Both the position numbers and the translations under genes were made by a program. This document shows, in pieces, positions 85-19,067 of a stretch of 19,201 nt of DNA. This DNA comes from Pseudomonadota bacterium. GTDB taxonomy: Bacteria > CALINM01. The DNA lies in the NCBI GenBank assembly GCA_026415985.1, contig JAOAGA010000025.1:1-19201 (forward strand), written 5' to 3'. The notes under the pieces were generated by a model. It searched no databases. It saw nothing but the letters and a program-made list of their open reading frames with translations, and was not told the origin of the DNA. The number at the start of each line of letters is the position of its first letter. The first letter of the stretch is position 1.

Positions 85-546
85 CTAATTCTTTTTAGGT
101 GTAAAAACAAACTCCCACTCGCTATATCTGTTTTTATTTTCAAAATGCCTGTATTGGTAAGGAAACCCTTTCTTTTTCAGAGGTTCTTTATCGCTTTTGC
201 TTCTTACCCCTTTAATTCTACCCGATTCATCTCTAATTATATCCCATTCTCCGTCTTCTGTCATCGGGTCTTTATAAATTTTTCTAATGTGGCGTTTTAT
301 ATTTAAAAATCTGTTGTCCTTAATAAGATCCTCAAGCTTTCTCGGTAAAAAATTTACCCCTCCGTGTCCGCTACTATAATAACTTTCAAGTCCCTTTACT
401 ATTTGATCACCTCGGAACAATAGTTCTTCCTCTTTTTCTCTCTGAACCGCCGTTTTCCAGACTTTTCCTGCCGATGCAAGTCCAATCCCTATAAAAACCA
501 TAATTATTATAACAAATATGTAAGTAAATCCCCTGTTACCAGTCAC
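85..546 (-). CDS. Atypical pseudopilin lacking the position-5 glutamate
   Basis: A 153-residue protein with a very short leader (MTGNRG) followed by FTYIFVIIIMVFIGIGLASAG, a class III (prepilin-type) signal with a Gly-Phe cleavage junction after residue 6 and one hydrophobic helix. Position 5 of the predicted mature protein is Phe, not the usual Glu. Absence of Glu5 is known for tip-type minor pseudopilins such as GspK, so a tip or initiator role is possible. The remaining 125 residues are charged and end in an aromatic patch (YSEWEFVF). The start is a GTG that overlaps the preceding pseudopilin gene by 11 nt, which suggests translational coupling. Pseudopilin class is well supported; the exact subunit is not assignable. 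Confidence 0.8.
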   Translation of the reverse strand: MTGNRGFTYIFVIIIMVFIGIGLASAGKVWKTAVQREKEEELLFRGDQIVKGLESYYSSGHGGVNFLPRKLEDLIKDNRFLNIKRHIRKIYKDPMTEDGEWDIIRDESGRIKGVRSKSDKEPLKKKGFPYQYRHFENKNRYSEWEFVFTPKKN

Positions 547-925
547 GATAGGGAGTTCCAGAAAGACTTATCTTATTACTGCCACTTTTTACATCATAAA
601 TACCCTGCTCGTCAGGTATTGGAGAGTTTACCAGGATCCATGTGGTATTTGAATCAGTAAAGGGATCTTTAGGTATAGCCCTCAGATATCCTTTGGTAAC
701 AAGAGCATCAAGAGAATCCGGATACTTCTGATTGTCTGCATAATACTGATCTATGGCGCTTCTCATAGCAAAAAGATTTTCCCTTAAGACAGTTTCTTTC
801 GCCTTAGTAACAGAGTTTTTATAAGTTGGTTGGGCTATCGTTAAAAGTATCCCGATAATAGACACAACTATTATCAACTCAAGTAAGGTAAAACCTTTTT
901 CACCAATCTTTGTAGTATGTCCCAT
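536..925 (-). CDS. GspG-like pseudopilin
   Basis: A 129-residue pseudopilin. The leader MGHTTKIGEKG is followed by FTLLELIIVVSIIGILL, giving a prepilin-peptidase site after Gly11 and the conserved Glu5 of the mature protein. After the N-terminal helix comes an alpha-helical stretch with AKETVLRENLFAMRSAIDQYYADNQKYP, then L..LV.KGYLRAIPKDPFT and a C-terminal YDVKSGS segment. These are hallmarks of major pseudopilin GspG/OxpG-type proteins. It would form the periplasmic pseudopilus filament pushed by GspE. The gene overlaps the upstream pseudopilin gene by 26 nt and is preceded by a purine-rich AGGAAAAGG, so it belongs to the same transcript. It is the best candidate for the main filament subunit of this system. 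Confidence 0.88.
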   Translation of the reverse strand: MGHTTKIGEKGFTLLELIIVVSIIGILLTIAQPTYKNSVTKAKETVLRENLFAMRSAIDQYYADNQKYPDSLDALVTKGYLRAIPKDPFTDSNTTWILVNSPIPDEQGIYDVKSGSNKISLSGTPYRDW

Positions 926-1388
926 CTATTGCCTTTTCCTCGCTTAAAGAATATACATCAAACACATCATCACCTTCTTTAGGATTATCTGGTTCGCTTG
1001 AGTAACTTCTTATCCCCCAAGTCTCCTCAGGTGATTTATTGTAGTCTGTATTAAACGGATCTCTTGGTATCCTTCTTAAAAAAAATATCTTTTTTCCCGG
1101 TACCGGTGAAGTAATATCTTCAACCCCTTCTACGAGCGTTTTCAAATCAGGTGGATAACCGGACCCGCCTAACTTCTGAGTAATTCTTTTTTCATCGTAG
1201 GCCCGTTTATAATCATCTATTGCCTTTCTTATTATTCTTAAATTATATCTTAATTCCATCTCTTTAGTTCTTTTGACAGCCATTCTCGCCACCGGAAAAA
1301 CAGCCGATGCAAGAATGGCAAGCACAGCCACCGCTACAACAAGCTCTATAAGAGTAACTCCCCTTTTATTACCCCCTTTAAAGCCCAT
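900..1388 (-). CDS. GspG-like pseudopilin (first of three)
   Basis: A 162-residue pseudopilin. The leader MGFKGGNKRG precedes VTLIELVVAVAVLAILAS: cleavage would fall after Gly10, leaving Val as residue 1 and Glu at mature position 5. Past the helix it keeps the GspG-type layout: NLRIIRKAIDDYKRAYDE, YPPDLKTLVEG, then RRIPRDPFN and a C-terminal DVFDVYS motif, with about 30 more residues in the globular domain than the next pseudopilin. An in-frame TAA lies 6 nt before the ATG, so the start cannot be further upstream. No convincing Shine-Dalgarno is seen. It is the first gene after the cohesin-like fragment, 124 nt downstream of it; that gap holds no gene I can support. Probably a second major or minor pseudopilin. 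Confidence 0.86.
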   Translation of the reverse strand: MGFKGGNKRGVTLIELVVAVAVLAILASAVFPVARMAVKRTKEMELRYNLRIIRKAIDDYKRAYDEKRITQKLGGSGYPPDLKTLVEGVEDITSPVPGKKIFFLRRIPRDPFNTDYNKSPEETWGIRSYSSEPDNPKEGDDVFDVYSLSEEKAIDGTYYKDW

Positions 1389-1512
1389 TATTTATTGCCA
1401 CCGGATTTCTTCATAAACATCTAAGTATAATTTGTTTACCTTCCAATAATTTTACAGCTGGTGACCCTTACTTTCTTTTCAACTCATAAGTTCATTATGA
1501 TATAAACTGAAA

Positions 1513-1938
1513 CTATCTAACATCAATTATAGCACCATTTGTTCTTAATGAGTAAATCTTGCCATTCATAAGTCTTATCTTAACGCTATTAAAGCTTACT
1601 GCTTCTATATTTGATCCTTTATTTTTGCCTTTAAGTGAGAGCCTGCCAACCGATACATTTGCAGGTAGCTCATCTTCAAACTTTCCGTATAACCTAAAAA
1701 CCCCGGTTTTCGGATCAATACTCGCCTTATAGACATCATTGTCACTCCTTTTTAAATCCTCTTCAATAAGTTTAATCGCCTCCGTATAGACTCCGTTAAT
1801 ACTGCCGGTAACCTCGAACTCAACAATATCCTGAACACCCGAAATAAGCAGATCAACTTCAAACTCCTCACCAACTCCTACCGATTCAGGGCCAATCGCT
1901 ATAATGTAGGCGTTCTCATCGCTAATCTGACCTGCTAC
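1513..1938 (-). pseudogene. Cohesin-like domain in frame with the secretin but separated by a TAA
   Basis: Reading straight on in the secretin frame after its TAA (1939-1941) gives 141 uninterrupted codons ending in TAG. The peptide has a beta-rich, cohesin-like pattern: VGVGEEFEVDLLISGVQDIVEF near the start, a middle DPKTGVFRLYG strand pair, and VGRLSLKGKNKG..IEAV at the end, like the cohesin-type tails (dockerin-binding fold) that I recall on some TPR-secretins of pilus-like systems. There is no in-frame ATG or GTG near its beginning; the only ATG is about 25 codons from the end, so it cannot easily be translated alone. It is either the C-terminal domain of the secretin cut off by a recent nonsense change, a base-call error, or a readthrough extension. 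The domain name is my judgement from the pattern. Confidence 0.6.
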
Positions 1939-3798
1939 TTAACCTGTTATGGCCTCTCTTTTCTGAACATCTTCCGTTGTCTCCTGACTTTCAACAATCG
2001 ATCTCAACATCGGTTTAGCAGAAAGCCTGTCTTCTGTTCCGGACCAGATATTAGTTACATCTGCTGTAGGATAGATTACTCCTTTTGTTATTCTCGGGGT
2101 TATTGATATAAAAATATCTGCCTGATCTATTTTGTTGGTATAACTTGTAAAAAGCGAGCCTATTACCGGTATATCACTAAGAAAGGCTATACCAGACCTT
2201 GCCCTCTCTAATCTGTTTTGTATTAACCCACCCAAGACTGTAGTTTCACCGTCTTTAACCCTAAGGGTTGTCTTCGCATTTCTGGTTCCTATTCTGTAGA
2301 CGGTTGTCCCGTTCTGAGTCTTTGATTCACTCACTATATTGCTGACCTCTGCCTCAATTTTTAATTCAACCTCATCATTGGAAAGAATTTTCGGCTCTAC
2401 ATTAAATTTCACACCAACATCAACATACTGAACATTTTCAGACCTCTGATCGGCACCACTCACAGTCACCGTAATTACCGGTACTCTATCTCCAACAAGT
2501 ACCTGAGATTTACCACCATCAAGAGTTTTTATCTGAGGGTTTGCAAGCGTTTTGGTTACACCATTTTGTTTCAGAAAGTTTATAGTAATATAAGGCAAGG
2601 TAAAGAGAATATTTCTGTTAATCTTTGCGATCTCAAGATCTTTGATTGTAAGTAGAGTGTCACCTGTTTTAATGTTAATATTTGAGTTTTCCACTATAGC
2701 GGTTGGGTTTCTGCCTTTACCAAACCCTGCCCCGATTGAGTAGGGATTAAAATCTACCCCCAATCTTTCTAAATCATTTCTGTTAACCTCTACAAACTCT
2801 AAATCAAGCAAAACCTCTGCCTTTGCCATATCGTTTGCCTGAATTATCTTATCTGCCAGTTCTAAGCTATCAAGATCTGATCTCACTATTATTGAGTTGG
2901 TATCTTCGTTAACAAAAATCTGCCTTGCTTCTATAAGATTTCTCAAAGTATTAACAACTTTTTTTGCATCTGCATATTTAAGGAAAAAGGTCTTTATATA
3001 ATACTCATCATACTCCTTTCTCTTTTGCTTATTATCTGGATAAACTATGGCATTTTTCTGATTTATCACTTTTAAGGCTAATTTATTGGTAAACAAAAGA
3101 AGTTCAAGTGCCTGAACAAAGGATGCCTGCTCAATAAAAATGGTCACTTTATTATCTCTTATCTGCTCATCGAAAAGAAAATTCACCCCTGAAAGTTTGG
3201 AAAGAATCTCAAAGACATCTTTAATGGGGGCATCTTTAAACTTTAAAGTAACCGGTTTGGTTGATTTAATATTGAGTTCATACTCGAGGGGGCTCTTCGC
3301 ACTTTCTTTTAATAACCTGTCTGCAAGGGTTTTTGCCTCTACAAGCTCTGTATTTAATGAGTAGGCTCTTTTTGCCTCATCAATGGCTTCCTTGATCTTG
3401 TTTGATGAATAAAAAACCTTTGCCTTTTCCAAACTTAACATAGCCTCTTTTTTTATCTTGATATCCTGCAAAAACTCAAAGGCCCTTTTAAAGGTAGGGT
3501 CTAAAACGAGAACTAAATTAAACTCTTTCTCTGCCTCATCAAGTTTGCCATCTGAAAGAAGCTTTCTTCCCTTGTCAAAATGTAGCTGAGCAGATGCTTC
3601 CTTTGCCCTTGCAAGCTTAATAACATATTCAATATCCCCGGGACTGTCCTGCAGAGCCTTATTGTAATATGTTATTGCCTCGTCATATTTTCCCTGAGAC
3701 ATAAGATTTTCTGCAGTTCTGTAAGCTCTGTATGAAGAGCATGAAGAAAACAAAATAACAGATAATAACAGTAAAATAACTTTAATCTTTCTTCTCAT
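1939..3798 (-). CDS. gspD: TPR-containing secretin lipoprotein (GspD/PilQ/OxpQ type)
   Basis: Outer-membrane channel of the secretion system, 619 residues. It begins with a lipoprotein signal (RRKIKVILLLLSVILFSSC, lipobox Cys20), so it probably reaches the outer membrane without a separate pilotin. Residues about 25-165 are TPR-like helices (GKYDEAITYYNKALQDSPGD; GKLDEAEKEFNLVLVLDP). Residues about 180-250 form an N0/STN domain (LKFKDAPIKDVFEILSKLSG), then an N1-like domain (FFLKYADAKKVVNTLRNLI). The secretin barrel follows at about 330-580, with LANPQIKTLDGGKSQVLVGD, VGVKFNVEPKI, and the signature VKDGETTVLGGLIQ...FLSDIPVIGSLF. The gene overlaps its upstream neighbour by 17 nt. It ends at a TAA immediately followed in frame by a cohesin-like domain, so the native protein may be about 760 residues. 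Confidence 0.93.
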   Translation of the reverse strand: MRRKIKVILLLLSVILFSSCSSYRAYRTAENLMSQGKYDEAITYYNKALQDSPGDIEYVIKLARAKEASAQLHFDKGRKLLSDGKLDEAEKEFNLVLVLDPTFKRAFEFLQDIKIKKEAMLSLEKAKVFYSSNKIKEAIDEAKRAYSLNTELVEAKTLADRLLKESAKSPLEYELNIKSTKPVTLKFKDAPIKDVFEILSKLSGVNFLFDEQIRDNKVTIFIEQASFVQALELLLFTNKLALKVINQKNAIVYPDNKQKRKEYDEYYIKTFFLKYADAKKVVNTLRNLIEARQIFVNEDTNSIIVRSDLDSLELADKIIQANDMAKAEVLLDLEFVEVNRNDLERLGVDFNPYSIGAGFGKGRNPTAIVENSNINIKTGDTLLTIKDLEIAKINRNILFTLPYITINFLKQNGVTKTLANPQIKTLDGGKSQVLVGDRVPVITVTVSGADQRSENVQYVDVGVKFNVEPKILSNDEVELKIEAEVSNIVSESKTQNGTTVYRIGTRNAKTTLRVKDGETTVLGGLIQNRLERARSGIAFLSDIPVIGSLFTSYTNKIDQADIFISITPRITKGVIYPTADVTNIWSGTEDRLSAKPMLRSIVESQETTEDVQKREAITG

Positions 3799-4363
3799 TA
3801 TGACCCTCTTTGTCTAATTTTAATATCCTTTTTTCACCTTTAACATCTACAAGAACTACTTCGTTTTTGCTAATTCTTTCAATAAAATAATCTGTATCAA
3901 ACAATCTGTCATTTTTTTTAAAAGATTTTATATCATTTTCTCTTTTTATAAAAGCAAACCTTTTTTCTTTCTTGTCCATAATGCCTAACAAAATAATATT
4001 ATTAAGCTTATCTACCTTTACTTCCTGTTTTTCTTCTTTTAATATTTCCTGCTGAGATGGCAAAATAGGCAGAGGCGGTGCAGGTTTTGGCTCAGGCTTC
4101 TTTTCTTTTTCTGTATTCTTATTAACATTAAGATCTTTTATCAGGTCTGCGAAGATATCCCTTTTAAAACGATATCCTGAAATCATAGGGTATTTAATAT
4201 TTTTTTCCTCCGTGCCTTTTCCTGCTATTAAAGATCTGCTGTTTTCCTGCATTACTGGCATTTGAGGAGATTTAGCCTCCCTCTCCTCTGTAAAAAACAC
4301 CCTGTAAAGGATAAGCACCCCCCATAGTAACAATAAAGATATAGCTATATTCTTCTTGTTCAT
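3782..4363 (-). CDS. GspC/PilP-like inner-membrane connector
   Basis: A 193-residue bitopic protein: a short cytoplasmic start (MNKKN), one membrane helix (IAISLLLLWGVLILYRVFF), a long polar linker with a Pro/Lys/Glu-rich stretch around residues 85-115, and a C-terminal all-beta domain (LNNIILLGIMDKKEKRFAFI ... LFDTDYFIERISKNEVVLVD) of the homology-region type in GspC and PilP. In both families this domain contacts the N0 domain of the secretin and links the inner-membrane assembly to the channel. Its place, directly after a PilO-like gene (its ATG abuts that TAA) and overlapping the secretin gene, is the expected one. Sequence alone does not separate GspC from PilP; the single membrane anchor and absence of a lipobox favour GspC-like topology. 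Confidence 0.8.
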   Translation of the reverse strand: MNKKNIAISLLLLWGVLILYRVFFTEEREAKSPQMPVMQENSRSLIAGKGTEEKNIKYPMISGYRFKRDIFADLIKDLNVNKNTEKEKKPEPKPAPPLPILPSQQEILKEEKQEVKVDKLNNIILLGIMDKKEKRFAFIKRENDIKSFKKNDRLFDTDYFIERISKNEVVLVDVKGEKRILKLDKEGHNEKKD

Positions 4364-4864
4364 TTAAATTACGCCCTTCAAATAGGTGGTTAAAATGATT
4401 GAACCTGTTATTATATCATTCCCTTTCTGAATCTTCAGATTATCAATCATTATAAAATGAGAACCTCCCTCTAACTCATATAAAAACCTTTTTATGCTCT
4501 CATAATTGCCTTCTATGCCGATAGTCAGGATTAATCTGGTAAGATTTAAATCCTTCTTTTCCTCAAAGCTATAATTAATTGTCTTTATATCAACCTTGCC
4601 CGTGAATGATTTTTCGAAGATATAATTAATGATTTTTGAGAAATCTTCTCTTGTTCTCAACCTCTTTTCATACTCACCTATCTTATCCTTTGTCTCATAA
4701 ATATCCTGAAAAGTAAGGAGCTTTTCCTTTGCCTTTTTATCTCTCACTATTTTGTATTCCGATAACTCCCTGGAAAGATCTCCTTCTCTCTTAGGTACAT
4801 AAAAAAACCAGACTAAAACATTAAGAAACAATAGAATTAATAATAAAACCAGAGGTTTTTTCAA
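4364..4864 (-). CDS. pilO: PilO/GspM-like inner-membrane protein
   Basis: A 166-residue protein with an N-terminal membrane helix (LVLLLILLFLNVLVWFFYVP), a coiled-coil-prone charged segment to about residue 80 (ELSEYKIVRDKKAKEKLLTF, then KIGEYEKRLRTREDF), and a C-terminal ferredoxin-like domain (LTRLILTIGIEGNYESIKRFLYELEGG...IDNLKIQ). The phrase pattern 'GNYESIKRFLYELE ... IDNLKI' is typical of PilO. It pairs with the PilN-like protein in the inner-membrane alignment platform. The start is a TTG that overlaps the PilN-like stop (TTGA), served by a strong GGGAGAG about 6 nt upstream; no ATG fits better. Confidence 0.82.
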   Translation of the reverse strand: MKKPLVLLLILLFLNVLVWFFYVPKREGDLSRELSEYKIVRDKKAKEKLLTFQDIYETKDKIGEYEKRLRTREDFSKIINYIFEKSFTGKVDIKTINYSFEEKKDLNLTRLILTIGIEGNYESIKRFLYELEGGSHFIMIDNLKIQKGNDIITGSIILTTYLKGVI

Positions 4865-5415
4865 TATATCTCTCCCTTAATCTCAAAATCGTTGATAAGC
4901 ACCTTTTTTTCGCCCACACGCTGGAAGGTCTGTCTCGTTATCTCAGCCTTTTTTATATAACTGATACCCTGTAATTTTTTAGAAAAGGCTACCGCACTCT
5001 CCGGATTTAGGCTTTCGCCTGTTAAGACAAAATTTTTTCTTGGTATGTCCATATCGAGACTCTTGAGCGACATCCCTCCTACTATTGTATCTTCAATATC
5101 TGTCAGAAAAACTGTTACAAAAAACCTTTTTTCATAAATATCCTTGTAGAATGTCATCTTTTCGTTGAGTTGTCTTATTTCTTCATCAGATACCAGTTTT
5201 CTTCTTTCTTCAATGCCTTTCTGGATCATCTCCTCGATAGCCCTTTTTTCATTTTTGACACGTTCTATTTCCACAGAAAGATTTCCAACCTTCCTAATAG
5301 CTAAAATAAAGAAGGTTAATAAAAAAAAGATGCTAAAAACGTAGAAAATGTTTACAGCAAATGCTTGCTTTCGCTTTACCCTGTTGATCGAAGAAAAATT
5401 GATATTATATCTCAT
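4861..5415 (-). CDS. pilN: PilN-like inner-membrane protein
   Basis: A 184-residue protein starting MRYNINFSSINRVKRKQ. The 'INF' segment just before the membrane helix is the PilN feature that docks into PilM in type IV pilus systems. One helix follows (FAVNIFYVFSIFFLLTFFIL), then a coiled-coil segment (VEIERVKNEKRAIEEMIQKG) and a C-terminal alpha/beta domain (GGMSLKSLDMDIPRKNFVLT... KLQGISYIKKAEI). I place the start at the ATG at 5415 rather than an upstream TTG at 5439: the ATG forms a classic ATGA overlap with the PilM-like stop and gives the expected short N-terminus. Together with the preceding gene it covers what GspL does as one protein in a standard type II system. Confidence 0.84.
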   Translation of the reverse strand: MRYNINFSSINRVKRKQAFAVNIFYVFSIFFLLTFFILAIRKVGNLSVEIERVKNEKRAIEEMIQKGIEERRKLVSDEEIRQLNEKMTFYKDIYEKRFFVTVFLTDIEDTIVGGMSLKSLDMDIPRKNFVLTGESLNPESAVAFSKKLQGISYIKKAEITRQTFQRVGEKKVLINDFEIKGEIY

Positions 5416-6272
5416 AAATCCAATACCCCGAGACCACAAACATAGGGCGCTACCTTTAACTCCTCCGATGGATTCAGTAACTTCTCTTTTATATTTAAAA
5501 CCTTTACCTTTTCTGAAAAATAATTTTCTATACCAATTCTTTCCATCTCGTCAAATATTGCCATTTCCTGTGGTTCAAAATCACCGAATCTCTCCCTGAT
5601 ATTCGTTAACATACTCATTGTTTCAAAATCTATTCTCGAAAGTTCCAATGGTCTATCAACCTCTCTTATTGAGATGGGTAAATCATCCTTTATAATAATC
5701 TGGGAAAAATCCTTTTCTCTTAACCAATAAACAACGCCGTTTCTGGGAAGGGATTTCTCGAAGACATTCATAAAAGAAAGTGAAGGTGTTATCATTAAAA
5801 CAGGTTCTACACCAAGCTCTATGAGAAGGTTTTCTAAAGATTTTAAAAATCCCTTGAAGGTAGCGACAATAAGAAGTTTGGTTACTTCTTTCTCTTTTTT
5901 AAGAAGCTGTATCCGGATTTCTACATAATCTTTCGGAATAGGCATTATCTTTTGTATCTTCCACATTACAAACTCAATCGCTTCGTTTTCGTTTTTAGGA
6001 TAGGTCTCAACTTCAAGATAATGATACCACGATAGGGCATGCGGTAAAATTACACATGACTCCTTAAGCTTACACAACGACTTATTTTTTAGCTCTTCTA
6101 TAAGCCCCTTCAGAACATCATAGTTAAGCAAAACATCCTTTTCTGTCCTTTCATAGACCTTTTTTTCCTTTGACCTAACCTTGTGTAAATCACCGACAAA
6201 ATATTGCCCTTTCCGTAACTCACCACAAAGATGGAGTAAATATTCGCTATCAAGTATTATTACACTTTTCAT
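5412..6272 (-). CDS. pilM: PilM/GspL-like actin-fold cytoplasmic protein (degenerate)
   Basis: A 286-residue soluble protein placed exactly where PilM sits (gspE, pilM, pilN, pilO). The N-terminus (MKSVIILDSEYLLHLCGEL) corresponds to the first beta hairpin of the actin-like fold but lacks the glycines of the usual nucleotide-binding 'DxGxxxxK' loop. The middle contains a PilM-like segment (CVILPHALSWYHYLEVE, then EAIEFVMWKIQKIMPIP and LIVATFKGFLKSLENLLIELG VEP). The end (APYVCGLGVLDL) resembles the last helix of PilM/GspL. The weak nucleotide loop suggests a structural adaptor rather than an active ATPase, as in GspL. A GGAA lies 8 nt before the ATG, and the gene starts 3 nt after gspE ends. 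The family assignment rests as much on order as on sequence. Confidence 0.78.
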   Translation of the reverse strand: MKSVIILDSEYLLHLCGELRKGQYFVGDLHKVRSKEKKVYERTEKDVLLNYDVLKGLIEELKNKSLCKLKESCVILPHALSWYHYLEVETYPKNENEAIEFVMWKIQKIMPIPKDYVEIRIQLLKKEKEVTKLLIVATFKGFLKSLENLLIELGVEPVLMITPSLSFMNVFEKSLPRNGVVYWLREKDFSQIIIKDDLPISIREVDRPLELSRIDFETMSMLTNIRERFGDFEPQEMAIFDEMERIGIENYFSEKVKVLNIKEKLLNPSEELKVAPYVCGLGVLDL

Positions 6273-6275
6273 AAT

Positions 6276-7979
6276 TTATTCCACAAAAGTTACTCTATTT
6301 ATTTCCTTAAGGGTTGTAACACCCTCAAAAACCCTTTTTAATGCAGACTCCCTTAAAAAGACCGTTCCCAACTCCTTTGCCTTCTTTTTCAGGATTTGAA
6401 TGGGAGCCTTCTCAATTATAAGTTCCTTTATATCATCGTTCAATACCAAAAGTTCTCCGATGGCAATTCTGCCTTTATAACCCGTATAGGAACATTCTGA
6501 ACAACCTTCTCCTTCATAGAAAACATAATCTTTATATTTATCATCAATACCGGAGAGTCTCAAGAAATCTGGAACATAGTTAACAGCTCTCTTACAGTTT
6601 TGACAGAGTGCCCTTATGAGCCTCTGAGCAAGAACACAGTTCAAAGATGATACAAAATTGTATGGAGATATACCCATATTCAAAAACCTTGCTATTACAT
6701 CAAATATGTTGTTTGCATGAACAGTTGTAAATACAAGATGTCCAGTAAGGGCGGATTGAATGGCTATCTGTGCAGTTTCCGGATCCCTAATCTCACCAAC
6801 CATTATCTTATCCGGATCGTGTCTGAGAATAGACCTTAACCCTCTTGCAAAGGTTAACCCCTTTTTCTCATTGACGGGAATCTGAACAACCCCCTTTAGC
6901 TGATACTCAACGGGGTCTTCAATAGTTACTATCTTATCTTCTCCGGAGTTAATCTCACTTATTGCAGCATAGAGTGTAGTTGTTTTTCCGGAGCCGGTAG
7001 GGCCTGTAACAAGAACCATCCCATAGGGCTCTCTTATCTTTTTTCTGAATGCTTCCACCAAGTCATTATCAAAACCTAAATAATCAAGCCTTAAGTTCTT
7101 TAAATCAATCATTATACTTTCTTTATCAAGAACCCTGATTACCGCGTCTTCACCAAAAATTGTAGGCACTATAGAAACCCTGAAATCAACATATTTTCCC
7201 CTGATCTTGAGCTTAAACCTTCCGTCCTGAGGGATTCTTTGTTCAGCTATATCAAGATCTGACATTACCTTAATTCTCGAAATTATGTGGCTTTGATATT
7301 TCAAGTCAATGGGACCTAAAATTTTTTGAAGAATACCGTCAATCCTAAAACGAACATACACACCTTCCTGAGAAGATTCAATATGAATATCACTTGCCCG
7401 TTTCTGCAGTGCATCGTATATGGCAGTGTCAATAAGTTTAACAACAGGACTCGTATCCTCGGTGAGCTTTTCTAAGGATAGAACCTCCTCTCCCTGTTCC
7501 GTTTCCTTAATGAGTAAAACTCTGAAATCTTCTGTTACCTCTTCCAGAATCTTTGAGGCGCTTTCAAGCTTCGCCAATGCTTTTTCTATTCTGCTTTTTG
7601 GGGAGACGATAATCTCAATGGGCTTACCCAAAATAAGATACAGCTCGTCAATAGTTAAGACCCTGATGGGATCTGAAAAGGCAAAATAATACTTTCCTCC
7701 TTCTTCCCTGATAAATACAATCTGATATTTCCTCATTAACTCAACTGAAATTCCTGAAGGCAGTTTATCCGGCGGGATATACTGAGAGAGGTCATCGTAC
7801 GGGAGTTTTAACTGTTCTGCCAGTGACTTATATAAATCATCTTCCGTTATATAGCCGAGATTAATAAGAACATTACCGACCTTTTCCCTGCTTTTTTTAG
7901 CCTCTTCAAGCCCCCTCTTTAACTGCTCCTCTGTAAGTAAACCTTTTTCTATGAGGATCTCACCGATCTTTTTTCGCAA
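6276..7979 (-). CDS. gspE: Secretion/pilus assembly ATPase GspE (PilB family)
   Basis: A 567-residue cytoplasmic hexameric ATPase that powers pseudopilus extension. Residues 1-150 form the MshEN/GspE N-terminal domain (IGEILIEKGLLTEEQL; VGNVLINLGYITEDDLYKSL). The motor domain begins near 175 (RASDIHIE). Visible motifs: Walker A GPTGSGKTT at 326-334, Asp box VTIEDPVEY at 351-359, Walker B IMVGEIRDPE at 392-401, His box TGHLVFTTVHAN at 412-423, and a zinc-binding tetracysteine CQNC (459-462) plus CSEC (493-496) typical of GspE/PilB extension ATPases rather than PilT. Start is TTG with a near-perfect GGAGGA about 6 nt upstream, inside the end of gspF; only 1 nt separates the genes. All catalytic motifs are intact. 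Confidence 0.96.
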   Translation of the reverse strand: MRKKIGEILIEKGLLTEEQLKRGLEEAKKSREKVGNVLINLGYITEDDLYKSLAEQLKLPYDDLSQYIPPDKLPSGISVELMRKYQIVFIREEGGKYYFAFSDPIRVLTIDELYLILGKPIEIIVSPKSRIEKALAKLESASKILEEVTEDFRVLLIKETEQGEEVLSLEKLTEDTSPVVKLIDTAIYDALQKRASDIHIESSQEGVYVRFRIDGILQKILGPIDLKYQSHIISRIKVMSDLDIAEQRIPQDGRFKLKIRGKYVDFRVSIVPTIFGEDAVIRVLDKESIMIDLKNLRLDYLGFDNDLVEAFRKKIREPYGMVLVTGPTGSGKTTTLYAAISEINSGEDKIVTIEDPVEYQLKGVVQIPVNEKKGLTFARGLRSILRHDPDKIMVGEIRDPETAQIAIQSALTGHLVFTTVHANNIFDVIARFLNMGISPYNFVSSLNCVLAQRLIRALCQNCKRAVNYVPDFLRLSGIDDKYKDYVFYEGEGCSECSYTGYKGRIAIGELLVLNDDIKELIIEKAPIQILKKKAKELGTVFLRESALKRVFEGVTTLKEINRVTFVE

Positions 7980-7980
7980 A

Positions 7981-9183
7981 TTATCCTCCTACCGCCCCTG
8001 CAAGACTGAAAATTGGTAAATACATAGCTATAACAATTATACCTACAACAAAACCCATAACAATCATCAGTGCAGGCTCCACAAGGGTTGTTACCATAGT
8101 TAAGGCATCTACTACAAGATTATCATAATATTCTGCAACTTCGTCAAGCATTTCCGAAAGCGAACCCGTCCCTTCTCCTGATTTTATAAGTCTGAGGGCT
8201 ATGGATGGAAAAAGATCGGTTTCTTCAAGTGATAGTGAAAGAGAGTTACCTTCCTCTACAAGCTTCGTAGCCTTTTTCAATTTTTCAGAAAAACTGGCGT
8301 TTGTTGACACGTTAGAAGTAATCTTTAACGCGGTTACTAAAGGTATTCCGCCTTTGACTATTGCAGAAAGAGTTCTGGCAAAATTGGAAACAAGGTAGTT
8401 TTTATATATAGTCGAGATAAAGGGAATTTTCAGCTTAAAATCATCAATTAACAGCTTGCCCTTAAAAGTGTTCTTAATCCTGTTAACAAAGATAAATCCC
8501 AAAATTATCGCCAAAATAAGGAAAGGAAGCACTACCTTAAATATATCTGTCAGTTTTAATAGTATCACTGTAGCCATAGGCAGGTCTACATTTGCCTCCA
8601 AATAAATCTTGCTGAAATTTGGTATGACGTAGGTAAATAAAAATATTACTGCTGCGACAATTACCGATAATACCATGATAGGATACACAGAAGCAGAAAC
8701 GATTTTTCTTCTCATCTCCTCCGTTTTTTTCATAAATATCTGATACTCTTTAAGTCTTTCAACAAGATTGCCACCCCTTTCTCCCGCCTTGACATTTGAA
8801 ATATAAAGGAGTGGAAAATATTCAGGGAATTTTTCCATAGCCTCTGAGAGAGAATAACCCTGTGCGATATCCTTTCTTATACTCTCAATAACCCTGTAAA
8901 TACCCTTTTTTTGAGGTAGCTTTTCAAGGATTATCTCCAGAGCTCTGACAAGTGGCTGACCCGCTTTTATTAATATATAGAGCTCTTGATTAAAAGTTAA
9001 AAAATCCCTCAGATTAAACCTTCTCTTGGCAATGGTTGAGACAGTATAAACTTCTGTAATATCGAGAAGAAGATAGCCATCTTTTGCAACAAGTTGCTTT
9101 ATCTCATCAATAGAATCGGCAAAATATTTTAAATGTTGAACTTTACCTGATTCTTCTGCAACCTTGCAGTTATAATATGGCAT
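7981..9183 (-). CDS. gspF: Inner-membrane platform protein GspF (PilC family)
   Basis: A 400-residue polytopic protein, normal length for GspF/PilC. It carries two tandem T2SSF domains: the first starts around residue 60 (RDFLTFNQELYILIKAGQPL), the second around residue 265 (NFARTLSAIVKGGIPLVTAL), each with the signature aromatic/Ala-Gly-Pro-Leu helix and a 'GE..G.L...L' turn (AGERGGNLVERL; SGEGTGSLSEML). Three membrane helices are visible near 170-190, 220-235 and 370-390, and the C-terminus PIFSLAGAVGG is the usual family ending. It anchors the GspE motor and the base of the pseudopilus. The ATG at 9183 has no Shine-Dalgarno; a -10-like box sits only 7 nt upstream, suggesting a leaderless start at the head of the secretion operon. 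Confidence 0.95.
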   Translation of the reverse strand: MPYYNCKVAEESGKVQHLKYFADSIDEIKQLVAKDGYLLLDITEVYTVSTIAKRRFNLRDFLTFNQELYILIKAGQPLVRALEIILEKLPQKKGIYRVIESIRKDIAQGYSLSEAMEKFPEYFPLLYISNVKAGERGGNLVERLKEYQIFMKKTEEMRRKIVSASVYPIMVLSVIVAAVIFLFTYVIPNFSKIYLEANVDLPMATVILLKLTDIFKVVLPFLILAIILGFIFVNRIKNTFKGKLLIDDFKLKIPFISTIYKNYLVSNFARTLSAIVKGGIPLVTALKITSNVSTNASFSEKLKKATKLVEEGNSLSLSLEETDLFPSIALRLIKSGEGTGSLSEMLDEVAEYYDNLVVDALTMVTTLVEPALMIVMGFVVGIIVIAMYLPIFSLAGAVGG

Positions 9184-9366: not shown

Positions 9367-10452
9367 CTATTTTGCATAGCTTTTGGGATTATGCTCCACG
9401 TTGTGACATTTAAGGTAACAACTTCCTCTAAATATTCCTTCTGATTTAAACTCAAGCCTGTTTGTAGTTGTTTCTTTCGTTACATAATCAGGATTAAACT
9501 CTATCAAAAACTTATTTTTTTCTGAACCATGGGGGTTATGACAGGTACTGCAGGATGTGCCTTTCCAGTTTCTTGCCTTTAATCCTTCTATATGTTCACG
9601 ATGAAAGGGAAAACTTTCATTATTCAGAATACTTTCCTTACGATGGCATTCATAGCATAAATCATACTCAGGTTTTAATGTTTCCTCTTTTTTTGTATAA
9701 GGAGAAACGAGAATATAATCATTGTTCGAGCCATGAACCCCTCTTGCTCTTCTGCTACCCTTTGTATCACTGCCGTGGCAATCGGAACATTTTATTATTG
9801 TTTCGTAGGTAAGTCCCTCTTTAAGGCTTGGAAGATAATTATTTTTTCCTTTTTCAACTACAGGATGATATGACGGATTATTCGGGTTAAACTCTCTGAT
9901 CTTGTTTCTCTGATATACAGGCTTATTGGCATCGGCACCATGACATTTAAAACAGACCTCATATTCATAATAGGCTTTCTTTACAAACTTCCCATCAATT
10001 GTTACCCCGCTGACTCCCCAATGGGGGACCTCAGGCAATGAATCGTGGGGGCTATGACAGTCGAGACACTCACTATGTCTTGGCACATTAGGGTTAGTCA
10101 CAGGAAAGACCTCACCATATTTATGTAATCCCCTTTTTTCAACAGGATGTTTATAAGGTTTGTCAAAATCACTTGCCACATCTTTCGATTGTTTAACATT
10201 AATTCTTATCTTTTCAAGCTTTTTTGACGCCTTAGTTTTAGGACCATGGCAGGTATAACACTGAACCTCCTCCTCACTTCCTGAGTATCTGATACCCGCG
10301 TGGCAGGACTTACAACCACCGGGGTTATTTTCTGATAAAAGATGGGTTGGCTTTTTTGCCTGAGCTAAAACATCAATCTCTTCTTTTGTAAGAGAAAAGG
10401 CGTTAAAAGCAAGACTAAAAAAAGTTATCAACATTAATAGGCATTTACTCAT
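9367..10452 (-). CDS. Octaheme c-type cytochrome (secreted)
   Basis: A 361-residue exported cytochrome. A cleavable signal peptide is visible (MSKCLLMLITFFSLAFNAFS). Seven CxxCH heme sites lie at residues 47, 65, 129, 167, 222, 266 and 301, several followed by PH/SPH (CLDCHSPH, CSTCHNPH). An eighth near the C-terminus has the variant spacing CX3CH (CYLKCH, 345-350), followed by NVEHNPKSY. Many spare His residues could give bis-His ligation. The layout resembles the 'doubled CxxCH' cytochromes common in metal-reducing bacteria. It starts 9 nt after the tetraheme cytochrome gene with an AGGTAAG-type site, so the two are co-transcribed. A likely job is passing electrons to the adjacent filament-type cytochrome, or helping form a conduit; that is inference. 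Confidence 0.9.
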   Translation of the reverse strand: MSKCLLMLITFFSLAFNAFSLTKEEIDVLAQAKKPTHLLSENNPGGCKSCHAGIRYSGSEEEVQCYTCHGPKTKASKKLEKIRINVKQSKDVASDFDKPYKHPVEKRGLHKYGEVFPVTNPNVPRHSECLDCHSPHDSLPEVPHWGVSGVTIDGKFVKKAYYEYEVCFKCHGADANKPVYQRNKIREFNPNNPSYHPVVEKGKNNYLPSLKEGLTYETIIKCSDCHGSDTKGSRRARGVHGSNNDYILVSPYTKKEETLKPEYDLCYECHRKESILNNESFPFHREHIEGLKARNWKGTSCSTCHNPHGSEKNKFLIEFNPDYVTKETTTNRLEFKSEGIFRGSCYLKCHNVEHNPKSYAK

Positions 10453-10461
10453 AAAAGCATC

Positions 10462-11319
10462 TTACCTGTTATGACAGTGATTGCAAAAACCATAATTACT
10501 TGCATTAAAATGAGCACAGGACCAGTTGGTAAAAGACATCCTTTCTCTCATAAAATTACCATACTGATTATTATGTGGTTCATGGCAGGTTGCGCACTGA
10601 ACACCAGTTCCATCGGGATTATAACTGCCATTATAACCCGCATAGCCCGTTGGTCTTAACGGATAGATGGGCTCTCCAGCAACTCCACCGACACAATCAA
10701 TATTTGTACTCCCCGCGGTTAACCCGTATTTACCGGTGCCACAGATATTGTTGGTACTGTTTCTCAGCCTCCATACATCTCCATCGGCTATCTTTTTTGC
10801 AATTAATGCATCAGTTACCGCAATGGAAACGGGGTGGGATGGATGATTTCCCGCAGGATCGTTAATATCTGTACCGAAATAAATTCCAACTGCAGTGGGA
10901 AGAATTTTCCCCTCCACATCAACATAATTTATACCAACAACCTGAATATTGCCTTTAATCATATCACCTACAGCGACAGTCCCGTCATGACAGGAAAGAC
11001 AAAGCTTTGAGCCTTTGTCAGGCTGATTTCTGGGACTTCTTAACGTTGCAGAACTAAAGGTGTGGTAAACTGCGGTAGATAATTTGTGCCCCCAAAGGGG
11101 TGCTGTTATGGCACCGTGAGGTACATGACAAAACTTACATATCTGTGTTTCACTTACTGCCTTGACCTTAACTACTGGCCTGTTTGGAGAAGTAGTTGCC
11201 CAACTTGCCAGATTGTGTGGACTTTTGGCAATAGGAGCATTCTGAATATCCACCGCCTTTATAACAGTCGGGATAGCAAAAAGAAGAAAGAAAACTATAA
11301 ATTTCAGTATCTTATTCAA
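10462..11319 (-). CDS. OmcE-like tetraheme cytochrome, candidate nanowire subunit
   Basis: A 285-residue exported protein: signal peptide to about residue 22 (ILKFIVFFLLFAIPTVIKA), then four CxxCH sites at 61-65, 107-111, 242-246 and 279-283. The order of motifs matches the OmcE family as I know it: a His in SPHNL just after the leader (H35), QICKFCHVPHGA, APLWGH, SKLCLSCHDGTVAVG, a NHPSHPVS segment, VQCATCHEPHN.QYGNFMR, and a final CNHCH at the C-terminus. OmcE polymerises into extracellular heme-chain filaments in Geobacter sulfurreducens. The insert between hemes 2 and 3 (about 130 residues) carries two extra Cys (193, 209) that could form a disulfide. Start is TTG overlapping the NHL stop (TTGA) with AGGAG about 7 nt upstream. 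Filament formation is an inference from homology by eye. Confidence 0.88.
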   Translation of the reverse strand: MNKILKFIVFFLLFAIPTVIKAVDIQNAPIAKSPHNLASWATTSPNRPVVKVKAVSETQICKFCHVPHGAITAPLWGHKLSTAVYHTFSSATLRSPRNQPDKGSKLCLSCHDGTVAVGDMIKGNIQVVGINYVDVEGKILPTAVGIYFGTDINDPAGNHPSHPVSIAVTDALIAKKIADGDVWRLRNSTNNICGTGKYGLTAGSTNIDCVGGVAGEPIYPLRPTGYAGYNGSYNPDGTGVQCATCHEPHNNQYGNFMRERMSFTNWSCAHFNASNYGFCNHCHNR

Positions 11320-12371
11320 CTACCCTCTCCTAAATACCTAATAATCTGAAGCCTCTTATTTAAGCTATCTGTCACATAAATATAGTTTTTATTATCAATA
11401 AATATGCCAGAAGGCAAATTGAACTGTCCGGGGAAAATACCTTCTTCACCTAAAACAGCAAGAAGCTTTCCTTCCTTATCAAAAACCTGTATGGAATCCT
11501 GTAGGCTATCAACCACATAGATATTTCCATCTCTGTCAGAACAAACGCCCTTAGGCCTTTCCAGATTACCATCACCCTTTCCCATCTGGCCGATGGAACC
11601 CAAATATTTTCCGTTTAAATCAAAAAACTGAATCCTGAAGTTCATACTATCAGTCACATAGACCTCTTCTTTTTCATCATCTACAAAAATATGAGTTGGA
11701 TAGTTAAACTCTATCTTTTCTTCTCCCCGCCCGCCGATTACCTTCACAGTCTCAAAATCTTTGTTAAAGATTCTCATGTTATGATTCAAGGTATCTACTA
11801 CATAAAACCTTCTTTTCTTCTCAGAGTAAGAGATACCGCTGGGTCTCCAATTAGTCTCCTTTAATGTTTTGTTATCTACAGGATACCCGTTTTTGTCATA
11901 AATTACAATTCTCTTTTTTTCCGGATCGGTCACATAAATTCTTTCCTGTTCATCGACAACGACAGAGGTGGGGAAAAACAGCTTATCTCCATCTTTTGTA
12001 TCCTGTAAAAACTCTACTATACCCTTTCTTATGTCAAAAACTACGACAGATAAAATCCCCTGATCAACCACATAAATCTTTTCATTTTTTGCGAAAACCG
12101 CATAAGGTTTTACAAAACCCATAAAGGGAGACTTTTCTTCACCTAACAGCCACTTAAAAAACTTATCTGTCCGGGTTTCTTCCTTCAGATTTTTTGTGAA
12201 ATCATCTATGTTGTTTATAATTTTAACCAGTTCATATCTTGGCTTTGAAGGTGGAGCAGGCCATTTAAGACCAATCTCGGTTTTATAGAAGGCAGAGGGA
12301 TTAGTAACAGCCACCTGATAGTTACAACCGGTAATCAAAAATAAAATCAAAAAAACTAAACGTCTGCTCAT
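11316..12371 (-). CDS. Six-bladed NHL beta-propeller lipoprotein
   Basis: A 351-residue lipoprotein. The signal MSRRLVFLILFLITGC has a lipobox at Cys16. After a WPAPPSKPRYELVKII segment come six NHL-type blades, each of the form 'P.G(I/V)..D....(I/V)YV.D....R(I/M).(I/V)F(D/N)..G'. Clear examples are FPTSVVVDEQERIYVTDPEK, RPKGVCSDRDGNIYVVDSLQ and LPSGIFIDNKNYIYVTDSLN. I start the gene at the ATG at 12371, not at an in-frame TTG at 12392: the earlier codons lie across a TATAAT box, and the ATG gives a clean lipoprotein signal. Such propellers are often found beside multiheme cytochromes in metal reducers, where an assembly or scaffolding role has been proposed. It is the first gene of the cytochrome operon. 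Confidence 0.9.
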   Translation of the reverse strand: MSRRLVFLILFLITGCNYQVAVTNPSAFYKTEIGLKWPAPPSKPRYELVKIINNIDDFTKNLKEETRTDKFFKWLLGEEKSPFMGFVKPYAVFAKNEKIYVVDQGILSVVVFDIRKGIVEFLQDTKDGDKLFFPTSVVVDEQERIYVTDPEKKRIVIYDKNGYPVDNKTLKETNWRPSGISYSEKKRRFYVVDTLNHNMRIFNKDFETVKVIGGRGEEKIEFNYPTHIFVDDEKEEVYVTDSMNFRIQFFDLNGKYLGSIGQMGKGDGNLERPKGVCSDRDGNIYVVDSLQDSIQVFDKEGKLLAVLGEEGIFPGQFNLPSGIFIDNKNYIYVTDSLNKRLQIIRYLGEGS

Positions 12372-12380
12372 CTTCCGAAT

Positions 12381-12389
12381 ATTATAACA
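12381..12389 (-). promoter_or_regulatory. Extended -10 promoter element for the NHL-cytochrome operon
   Basis: TGTTATAAT on the minus strand: a perfect TATAAT (12381-12386) with a TGn extension. No TTGACA-like box is found 16-18 nt upstream. The predicted start site (about 12374) leaves only about 3 nt before the ATG at 12371, so the mRNA may be leaderless, although a GGAAG touches the ATG. Confidence 0.5.
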
Positions 12390-12414
12390 CAATTTTTTAT
12401 TGTTATTCTTAAAA

Positions 12415-16913: not shown

Positions 16914-17816
16914 TTATTCCCAGGAATACCTGACAACCGGTAAGTTTGGATCTTTACTCCACTCCTGCATAGAGCCTTCATAGACCTTAACATTCTCATA
17001 GCCAAGTACCTCGCTTAAAACAAACCACCATCCCGTGGAAACCTTTCCGGTATCACAATAAGAGATAATCTCTTTTTTCTTATCCTTTCCAACAACCCCT
17101 TCTGCTATTGCCTGCATCTCTTCTGCCGATCTGTAAACATTGTCTTTTCCGTAAAGCCAGCTCGTCGGCAGGTTTTTGGCACCCTTTATATGTCCTGCCT
17201 TTTCAACAAAATCAAGCTTAGTCACTCCGTAAAAGGCGTCTGACCCTCTATCATCAATGATAATAGCCTTGCCCAGCTGTTTTGCAACATAATCCTTTCC
17301 TACCAAAACACCTTTATTCCAGTTAGGCTTGAAATTACCTGCCTTAGGCTTGACTATCTCCGTTGATGTTGCTCTTTGTTCCTTCAACCATTTGTTAATC
17401 CCGCCGTCAAGAACCGCAGAATTGTTAAAACCTGCATACTTTAATGTCAGAACAACCCTTGTCATATTAACCACATCACTTACACTATCTGCAGGACCAG
17501 CAATAACTACAATGGAGTCATTAGATATACCTGCACCATTTATGATATCTACAAGATCATCATCTTCTGGTAACTCATTTTTTAACCCCTTCTTATCCAC
17601 TGCCCATACTCCGTAGAATACATTTACAGCACCGGGTATATGTCCGTTTTTATAATCCTCTGCCTTCCTGATATCAATAACAACAAGTTTTGGATTACTT
17701 AAATTCTTCTCAAGCCAATCAGTCGAAACAATAGGTGCTATCTCCTTCGCTAAACTAACAGATATAAACATCAAACCCATAATTAAAGCCAGGAATAAAA
17801 CCCTTACCTTTCTCAT
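16914..17816 (-). CDS. Secreted two-domain rhodanese (sulfurtransferase)
   Basis: A 300-residue thiosulfate-sulfurtransferase-type protein with a Sec signal peptide (VRVLFLALIMGLMFISVSLA, cleavage near 23), so it acts in the periplasm or beyond. The N-terminal domain (about 28-145) has the fold motifs VVIDIRKAEDYKNGHIPGA but no Cys in its active-site loop (VVIAGPADS), the normal inactive half. The C-terminal domain (about 165-295) has IIDDRGSDAFYG, KAGHIKGAKNLP and the catalytic loop YCDTGKVST with Cys254. Such enzymes carry sulfane sulfur as a Cys persulfide, and rhodaneses can also handle selenium. A strong AAGGGGGG ribosome site lies just before the ATG, 9 nt after the multiheme cytochrome gene, so the pair forms an operon. 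The in vivo donor and acceptor are unknown. Confidence 0.93.
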   Translation of the reverse strand: MRKVRVLFLALIMGLMFISVSLAKEIAPIVSTDWLEKNLSNPKLVVIDIRKAEDYKNGHIPGAVNVFYGVWAVDKKGLKNELPEDDDLVDIINGAGISNDSIVVIAGPADSVSDVVNMTRVVLTLKYAGFNNSAVLDGGINKWLKEQRATSTEIVKPKAGNFKPNWNKGVLVGKDYVAKQLGKAIIIDDRGSDAFYGVTKLDFVEKAGHIKGAKNLPTSWLYGKDNVYRSAEEMQAIAEGVVGKDKKKEIISYCDTGKVSTGWWFVLSEVLGYENVKVYEGSMQEWSKDPNLPVVRYSWE

Positions 17817-17825
17817 AAACCCCCC

Positions 17826-19067
17826 TTATTTTTTTATTTCTTTTGGCTTATAAATAAGTTTTTCATTGAACTTAGAGCCATTCTTAATGAGAGTATCTTT
17901 ACTTAAGAAATATTTTTTCTCAACATGGCAGGCATCACAGGACCTTGTTCTGTCGGTTCTCTTTTTAATATTGTGAACAGCGGAATCCCAATAGTTTGGA
18001 AGGCTGTCAAAACTCTCCATCTTCAGCCCAGCCTTTTTAAAGGTATCCCTGATTGTTGGAACAACCCTGAGAGTAGTAACGGTCTTTAAATCCCTCGGAC
18101 TAAGTCCTAAAATAAAGTCCGCCTTGGAAAAAGAACCCTCACCATAGTGACAGTCATGACAATTTCTGTAATCCCCACCGGAATGGCAACTATAGCAACT
18201 TAATTTATCCTTATGAATATCGTGGGCATTTTTTGCCTTTTCTGACTTTTCCTTTTTGTAGGGATGGCACCCTATACAACTTGGTTTATTCTTAACATCC
18301 TTGCGGGATTTATAAGCCTTGCCATCACCGTGCATCTCATCAACATTATGGCAGTTCATACACATCATTCCTTTTGTATAATGAACATCCGGGTTGCTAC
18401 CAAAATCACCTGTAAATTCAGGATAGACCCTCCCGCCATGACAGAAATAGCAGGTCTTGGACTCATCCTTACGTATAAACTTATGCCCCTTAATCAACCC
18501 TAAATTTACCCCTCCGATCACCGCTGACTTAACATGACAATCACCACAGGCAGAATGACAGCTTCTGCAGGATTTTTCAAAAACCTTTTCATTAAATACC
18601 CTAAACTCGTCCTTAGAGAATCTATCTTTAACACCCTGTCTCTGCCCTTCTGTAGTATAGTGCAGTGAGCTTTTATACTTTTTTGCAATCTCCTGATGAC
18701 ACTTACCACATAAATCAGGGTTCTGTGAGGGCCTTTTATTAAGCCCCCTATGGGCAGACTCTTTATTTTCCCCTTTCTCATCACCACTATGACAAAAGCT
18801 ACAGCCCTCAGCAAAATGTGGATCCTCTTTTATGATAGTTTTATCAACAAGATAGGCTTTATATAATTCTTCCGCCTTAACTGACGGAACCGCTCCCGCT
18901 CAACCCTCTCCCTCAGCAGGTGGCTGTTCCTTGGGGATGAACAATGATTTTAGCTTATTCTCATCGGTGTGACAGGAAACACAACTATTCTCTGCCATAC
19001 TATCAATAATATAGCCATGCAAAAAAACAAAACAAACAGACAAAATTAAAAATATTTTAACTTTCAC
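17826..19067 (-). CDS. Eleven-heme cytochrome with in-frame TGA (possible selenoprotein)
   Basis: One frame runs from a GTG at 19067 to a stop at 17826, interrupted only by a TGA at codon 56 (18900-18902). Before it: a signal peptide (KVKIFLILSVCFVFLHGYII, probable cleavage after DSMA) and heme site CVSCH (29-33). After it: ten more CxxCH sites beginning at residues 89, 120, 167, 174 and 206 onward (CSFCH, CGKCH, CRSCH, CGDCH, CYFCH, CMNCH, CIGCH, CYSCH, CHDCH, CDACH). With the TGA decoded, the protein has 413 residues and 11 hemes. The TGA lies in a PPAEGEG-x-AGAV linker and a SECIS-like hairpin follows. Without recoding only a 55-residue monoheme peptide results, and there is no good restart site near the TGA. 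A TAA directly precedes the GTG, fixing the start. Selenocysteine is inferred; a nonsense mutation or base error is the alternative. Confidence 0.8.
18870..18902 (-). promoter_or_regulatory. In-frame TGA with SECIS-like hairpin
   Basis: On the mRNA, the UGA (18902-18900) is followed after 10 nt by UUCCG (18889-18885), a bulged U (18884), C (18883), the loop AGUUAAG (18882-18876), G (18875) and CGGAA (18874-18870). The stem has 6 pairs, the loop starts 17 nt after the UGA and has a G among its first two bases. These features fit the general bacterial SECIS model (loop 16-37 nt after UGA, bulged U, early G in the loop), though the loop is not identical to the AGGUCU of E. coli fdhF. A competing GGA/UCC pairing is possible. 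Confidence 0.5.

Follow-up and report, generated by a model that had tools for sequence, protein, structure and literature searches.

An in-frame TGA predicted to encode selenocysteine in an eleven-heme c-type cytochrome that is paired with an exported rhodanese

The window analyzed here, i.e. the whole stretch of 19,201 nucleotides, contains an apparently broken gene for a multiheme c-type cytochrome, followed on the same strand by a gene for an exported rhodanese (Table 1). Translation of the minus-strand frame 19067..17826 gives 413 codons with a sole internal stop, the TGA at codon 56 (18902..18900), and so bears out the initial annotation, which had described a frame open on both sides of a lone TGA; the start codon is a GTG immediately 3' of an in-frame TAA, and the terminator is a TAA at 17826. 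The heme count was also right: one of the 11 CxxCH motifs precedes the TGA and 10 come after it. PF14522 and PF14537 both match the protein above cut-off, and its N-terminus is by inspection hydrophobic and signal-like, as befits an exported multiheme c-type cytochrome. The selenocysteine (Sec) predicted at codon 56 would be placed between hemes 1 and 2, on the glycine-rich loop GxGU[A/G]G. TGA is the normal terminator of four other open reading frames in the window, where it had already been recognized as an ordinary stop, and the code is therefore not reassigned.

Table 1. Coordinates of the features of the cytochrome-rhodanese locus in the window
Feature	Position	Strand	Basis
Predicted Sec-containing 11-heme c-type cytochrome, 413 aa	17826..19067	(-)	Open frame with one TGA, 11 CxxCH, 54 homologues
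Predicted Sec codon TGA, codon 56, motif GEG-U-AGAVPSV	18900..18902	(-)	TGA in 53/54 homologues at this column
SECIS-like hairpin, 7 bp, 6-nt loop AGUUAA, loop 17 nt past UGA	18870..18889	(-)	Folding, family comparison
Exported tandem rhodanese (sulfurtransferase)	16914..17816	(-)	PF00581 5.8e-34, two stretches

Elsewhere in the window, two more genes for multiheme cytochromes (PF09699 and other CxxCH families) lie at 9367-11319 and adjoin an NHL-repeat gene (11316-12392); a glutamate synthase gene stands between the Sec cytochrome and this 9367-12392 group. A type II secretion/type IV pilus-like cluster at 536-9183 includes two pseudopilin-type genes, a secretin, a PilO/T2SM-like protein, an ATPase and T2SF genes. 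A search of a plasmid collection gave no match.

A striking conservation of the TGA is evident from the homologues of the cytochrome. One scan of genome contigs, together with profile searches, covered about 400 genomes and returned 54 alignable homologues with 29-95% identity (median 37%); the Sec column holds TGA in 53 of these and a Tyr codon in one (L065), while Gly, Arg and Trp, the residues that had been named as evidence against selenocysteine, do not occur there. The conserved in-frame UGA expected of a bacterial selenoprotein is thus present (53/54), and the aligned Cys form that is also looked for in selenoproteins was found in 0 of the 54. Cys homologues aligned at the Sec site are usual for bacterial selenoproteins, not obligatory. 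G55, just before Sec, is invariant, the motif GxGU[A/G]G is kept in most homologues, and one of them, L022, has TGA internally and again as the gene terminator. In the sampled phylum, ~48 of 395 genomes carry the family (about 12%, weak partial hits excluded); in the window's own phylum, a poorly sampled lineage, all three of the genomes sampled have the Sec cytochrome. The Tyr homologue (L065:255-2387, minus strand), the only one with a sense codon (TAC) at this column, is a cytochrome-rhodanese fusion, and its genome still has selB.

The machinery for selenocysteine insertion, on whose presence the initial annotation had made its proposal depend, is complete in the genome of the window (161 contigs, 84% complete): selA (377 bits), selB (373 bits), selD (324 bits) and selC were all found, the last as a tRNA-Sec of 76.6 bits with anticodon UCA according to ARAGORN. 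The selD gene (L018:1486-2589) has an in-frame UGA of its own near the N-terminus, in the motif SGUAAK; the selenophosphate synthetase of this organism is thus itself a predicted selenoprotein, giving the organism one or more predicted UGA-Sec genes besides the cytochrome. Among the genomes that carry the cytochrome, selB is present in 45 of 48, compared with 353 of 395 (89%) in the sampled phylum overall; since selB is common across the phylum, this co-occurrence is weak evidence, consistent with Sec decoding but not discriminating. The three carrier genomes with no selB match are possibly incomplete assemblies. The genomes of L022, L024, L025 and L028 have a tRNA-Sec; none was found in the two carrier MAGs G003 and G005, the genomes of L021 and L023, where 150 of 230 and 254 candidates, respectively, were scored, and G005 does have selB.

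According to the published bSECIS model, the hairpin should have a stem of 4-16 bp, a loop of 3-9 nt with a G within its first two positions, a spacing of 16-37 nt from the UGA and an energy of at most -7.5 kcal/mol (PMC13188914). The window hairpin, UUCCGUC-AGUUAA-GGCGGAA (18889..18870), agrees with the model on every point, having seven pairs of which one is U.G, a G at loop position 2, and an energy of -8.6 kcal/mol under strict bSECIS scoring; folded with its flanks it reaches -9.4 kcal/mol (z -2.7), equalled by 2 of 200 shuffles. Folding thus confirms the SECIS-like hairpin with a G-containing loop at the right spacing that had been noticed in the sequence; the bulged U ascribed to it does not stand, because the stem has a U.G wobble and no bulge. 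Across the family 34 of 52 members pass the strict criteria and 18 fail; the pass rate is 4% at other positions within these genes (72 of 1795) and 5% at ordinary terminal TGAs (6 of 121). An unconstrained search places the apical loop 17 or 18 nt past the UGA in 38 of 52.

The hairpins fall into three types that follow clades, with the position kept in all three. The arms of type II, GGCUCC-GUU-GGAGCC, occur swapped as GGAGCC-GUU-GGCUCC, the protein alternating between APLEP and EPLAP at this point, and L078 and L075 show additional paired changes; 92.5% of type II cells pair, compared with 34-48% when the arms are slid, and the covariation score was reached by 0 of 500 shuffles. Since covariation cells count sequences, we read the compensatory changes as at least three independent events. 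In type I, to which the window hairpin belongs, 94% of cells pair and there is little variation or covariation, and the clade L079-L083 has a third type built around CCCC-AGGU..GGGG. Scanned with the strict criteria, the Tyr homologue L065 proved to have lost the SECIS-type hairpin. Against a null of synonymous codons, the hairpin energies show a modest excess of structure (mean z -1.02 vs -0.16 for controls); the shift is modest since much of the stem is already dictated by the amino acid sequence, and the tests of pairing and of the bSECIS criteria carry more weight. Rfam gave no family within the window, and at the Sec site a chance match alone.

The Sec machinery, the conserved TGA and the conserved SECIS-type hairpin together support what the initial annotation had raised as a possibility, and we are confident in predicting that the TGA at codon 56 is decoded as selenocysteine by way of the bacterial SECIS hairpin directly behind it. 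An in-frame stop within a fragmented draft assembly of 161 contigs could suggest a nonsense mutation, a pseudogene or a sequencing error, with TGA as a true stop, but a TGA column identical in 53 of 54 homologues refutes this reading, as do ten heme sites intact after the TGA and residues conserved throughout; its probability is negligible. Sequence by itself cannot identify the residue inserted, which leaves room for suppression or reassignment in which another tRNA, e.g. for Trp, reads the UGA; we reject this as scarcely credible, given that TGA terminates other genes in the window and homologue L022 itself, that tRNA-Sec(UCA), SelA, SelB and SelD are all encoded in the genome, that the hairpin 3' of the UGA shows compensatory changes, and that no homologue has Trp. 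Sec insertion and termination compete in known systems, and the gene might accordingly be programmed for two products, the UGA mostly acting as a stop to give a short one-heme peptide with a role of its own, with rare Sec insertion giving the long form. The pre-UGA portion of L067, which includes a rhodanese, would suit such an arrangement; in most members, however, the pre-UGA product is ~30 mature residues with one heme, and the strong constraint downstream of the UGA also speaks against it, making a two-product gene very improbable. Decoding as selenocysteine is thus the reading we adopt: on the sequence evidence this is a real selenoprotein family, neither pseudogene nor error, and the apparently broken gene almost certainly encodes a secreted 11-heme electron carrier with one selenocysteine.

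The rhodanese gene starts 9 nt past the cytochrome stop codon; its product has an active-site-like motif, YCDTGKV, in its C-terminal part, and its closest solved relatives are rhodanese/thiosulfate sulfurtransferases. It resembles the rhodanese/3-mercaptopyruvate sulfurtransferases of PF00581/PRK11493 in its tandem rhodanese architecture with a C-terminal active-site-like Cys, and differs from these enzymes in being exported and coupled, in some relatives by fusion, to a multiheme selenocytochrome. The number of loci with a rhodanese downstream, nearby or fused is 51 of the 52 that could be assessed. When the count is confined to rhodaneses that lie downstream, no more than 1.2 kb from the last heme region, fusions included, it is 49 of 52, two of the matches (L085, L086) being weak; the rhodanese is upstream of the cytochrome in L045, fused N-terminally in L067 and fused C-terminally in L025, L065 and L066. 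L084, alone among the 52, has no rhodanese match, and L084, L085 and L086, where the rhodanese is weak or absent, are 10-heme relatives. Some loci have single-domain rhodaneses, and the clade L079-L083 has two tandem rhodanese genes after the cytochrome. In L067 (L067:5119-8694, minus strand) a rhodanese domain before the UGA and a 10-heme cytochrome after it share one frame; the product would be just the rhodanese part if translation stops at the UGA, and a fusion if Sec is inserted. No further widely conserved neighbor was found around the pair in the neighborhoods of the family loci, so the unit is a two-part module. Synteny and fusions support a functional link between cytochrome and rhodanese, one that, as genomic predictions go, is solid.

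The known Sec multiheme cytochrome to which this protein invites comparison is ExtKL of Geobacter and the Desulfobacterota (PMC1914089; PMC5877670; NF040886 in PMC13188914). It too is an exported c-type cytochrome with several hemes, its gene contains an in-frame TGA that is predicted to specify Sec, and a rhodanese-like gene, extH, belongs to its cluster. The two differ in that ExtKL has 5 hemes and, in the C-terminal domain that follows them, Sec at ~residue 310 (motif PDGUPTPNR), whereas the window protein has 11 hemes and Sec at residue 56 in GEGUAG. Membership in ExtKL was rejected, as the window protein has neither the 5-heme/PDGUPTPNR features nor an NF040886 score: against this model (cut-off 250 bits) the cytochrome gave no match at E up to 1, and a search of the window genome with it did not return the cytochrome locus. 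An hhalign match between ExtKL and the window family covers the CxxCH repeats, with the Sec sites left unaligned, and the window rhodanese scores 78 bits against NF040901 (ExtH), below the cut-off of 200 bits. Of the 395 genomes, 40 carry ExtKL and one of these (G279) also has the window family. The initial annotation had mentioned related cases near ext clusters of Geobacter; an ext Sec cytochrome with a rhodanese does exist, but ExtKL is not the protein described here, and its Sec lies at another site.

Other catalogued families do not account for the cytochrome. The Sec form of the tetrathionate reductase family octaheme cytochrome (TIGR04315) is a Sec multiheme cytochrome annotated in GenBank (PMC13188914); that family has 8 hemes, and the window cytochrome does not match TIGR04315. 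No curated NCBIfam model (June 2026) covers the family at cut-off, and we did not recognize it among the 119 families of a 2026 review (PMC13188914), which include those of Haft and Tolstoy 2025. A 'cytochrome c family protein' appears in an older review under PF13435; we take this entry to be ExtKL, since some ExtKL members match PF13435 and the 2026 table gives it that name, though some doubt remains, because PF13435 is matched by members of the present family as well. The selenoprotein family thus appears to be uncatalogued.

With Sec on a loop close to the N-terminal hemes, a partner that forms persulfides and a wire of eleven hemes, the pair would suit transfer and redox chemistry of sulfur (or selenium). 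The rhodanese would carry sulfane sulfur (or selenium) as a persulfide, which the low-pKa selenol of Sec could take over or attack to give a Se-S intermediate, with the eleven hemes delivering or removing electrons for this step; the pair might thereby reduce (or oxidize) a periplasmic sulfur compound (thiosulfate, polysulfide, sulfur) or a selenium oxyanion. We give transfer of sulfur or selenium from rhodanese to Sec a little less than an even chance, and the substrate, direction and chemistry suggested here are likewise conjectural. AlphaFold folds the rhodanese part of the L025 fusion with high confidence; models of the cytochrome have pLDDT about 38 or lower.

Nine conserved His residues lie outside the heme motifs, for 11 hemes, so that one or two hemes may lack His as sixth ligand. 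This count would accommodate a plain electron carrier in which Sec, a structural or axial ligand of a heme, tunes a potential, with the rhodanese serving in maturation or protection, and thiosulfate dehydrogenases do have Cys/His-ligated c hemes (PMC9562282). In TsdA, sulfur chemistry takes place at a chalcogen residue near a c heme; the likeness is offered as an analogy, not as a claim of sequence relationship, and the window cytochrome has Sec rather than Cys, and 11 hemes. Against Sec as a ligand alone, its near-universal presence, the absence of a Cys form and the sulfurtransferase linkage would point to reactivity beyond ligation, and we consider the plain carrier possible, with the balance clearly against it. 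Somewhat less likely still is a bolder combination in which Sec would be the reactive or axial ligand of a c heme and be fed sulfur by the rhodanese, making a selenium-sulfur-heme relay for multi-electron sulfur chemistry on the eleven-heme wire. Reduction of selenite or tellurite, as proposed for the Geobacter ext cluster, is the most doubtful of these: the ext theme is likewise a rhodanese plus a Sec cytochrome (PMC5877670) and there is weak profile similarity to ExtM, ExtN and ExtH, but the ext profiles all score far under their cut-offs and the pair here has no other conserved neighbor. Transfer from rhodanese to Sec therefore remains the function that we put forward, tentatively.

The prediction would add a widespread selenoprotein family, present in about 12% of 395 genomes of one phylum and in the window's small phylum. 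Many selenoprotein searches depend on Cys homologues (PMC13188914), and the family, which has none here, may have been missed for that reason; standard annotation would render such genes broken, with the cytochrome lost or truncated. Besides ExtKL, it would be a separate case of selenocysteine within a multiheme cytochrome, and the near-obligate pairing with a rhodanese offers a concrete, testable connection of selenium with sulfane sulfur and with electron transfer through multiple hemes in anaerobes.
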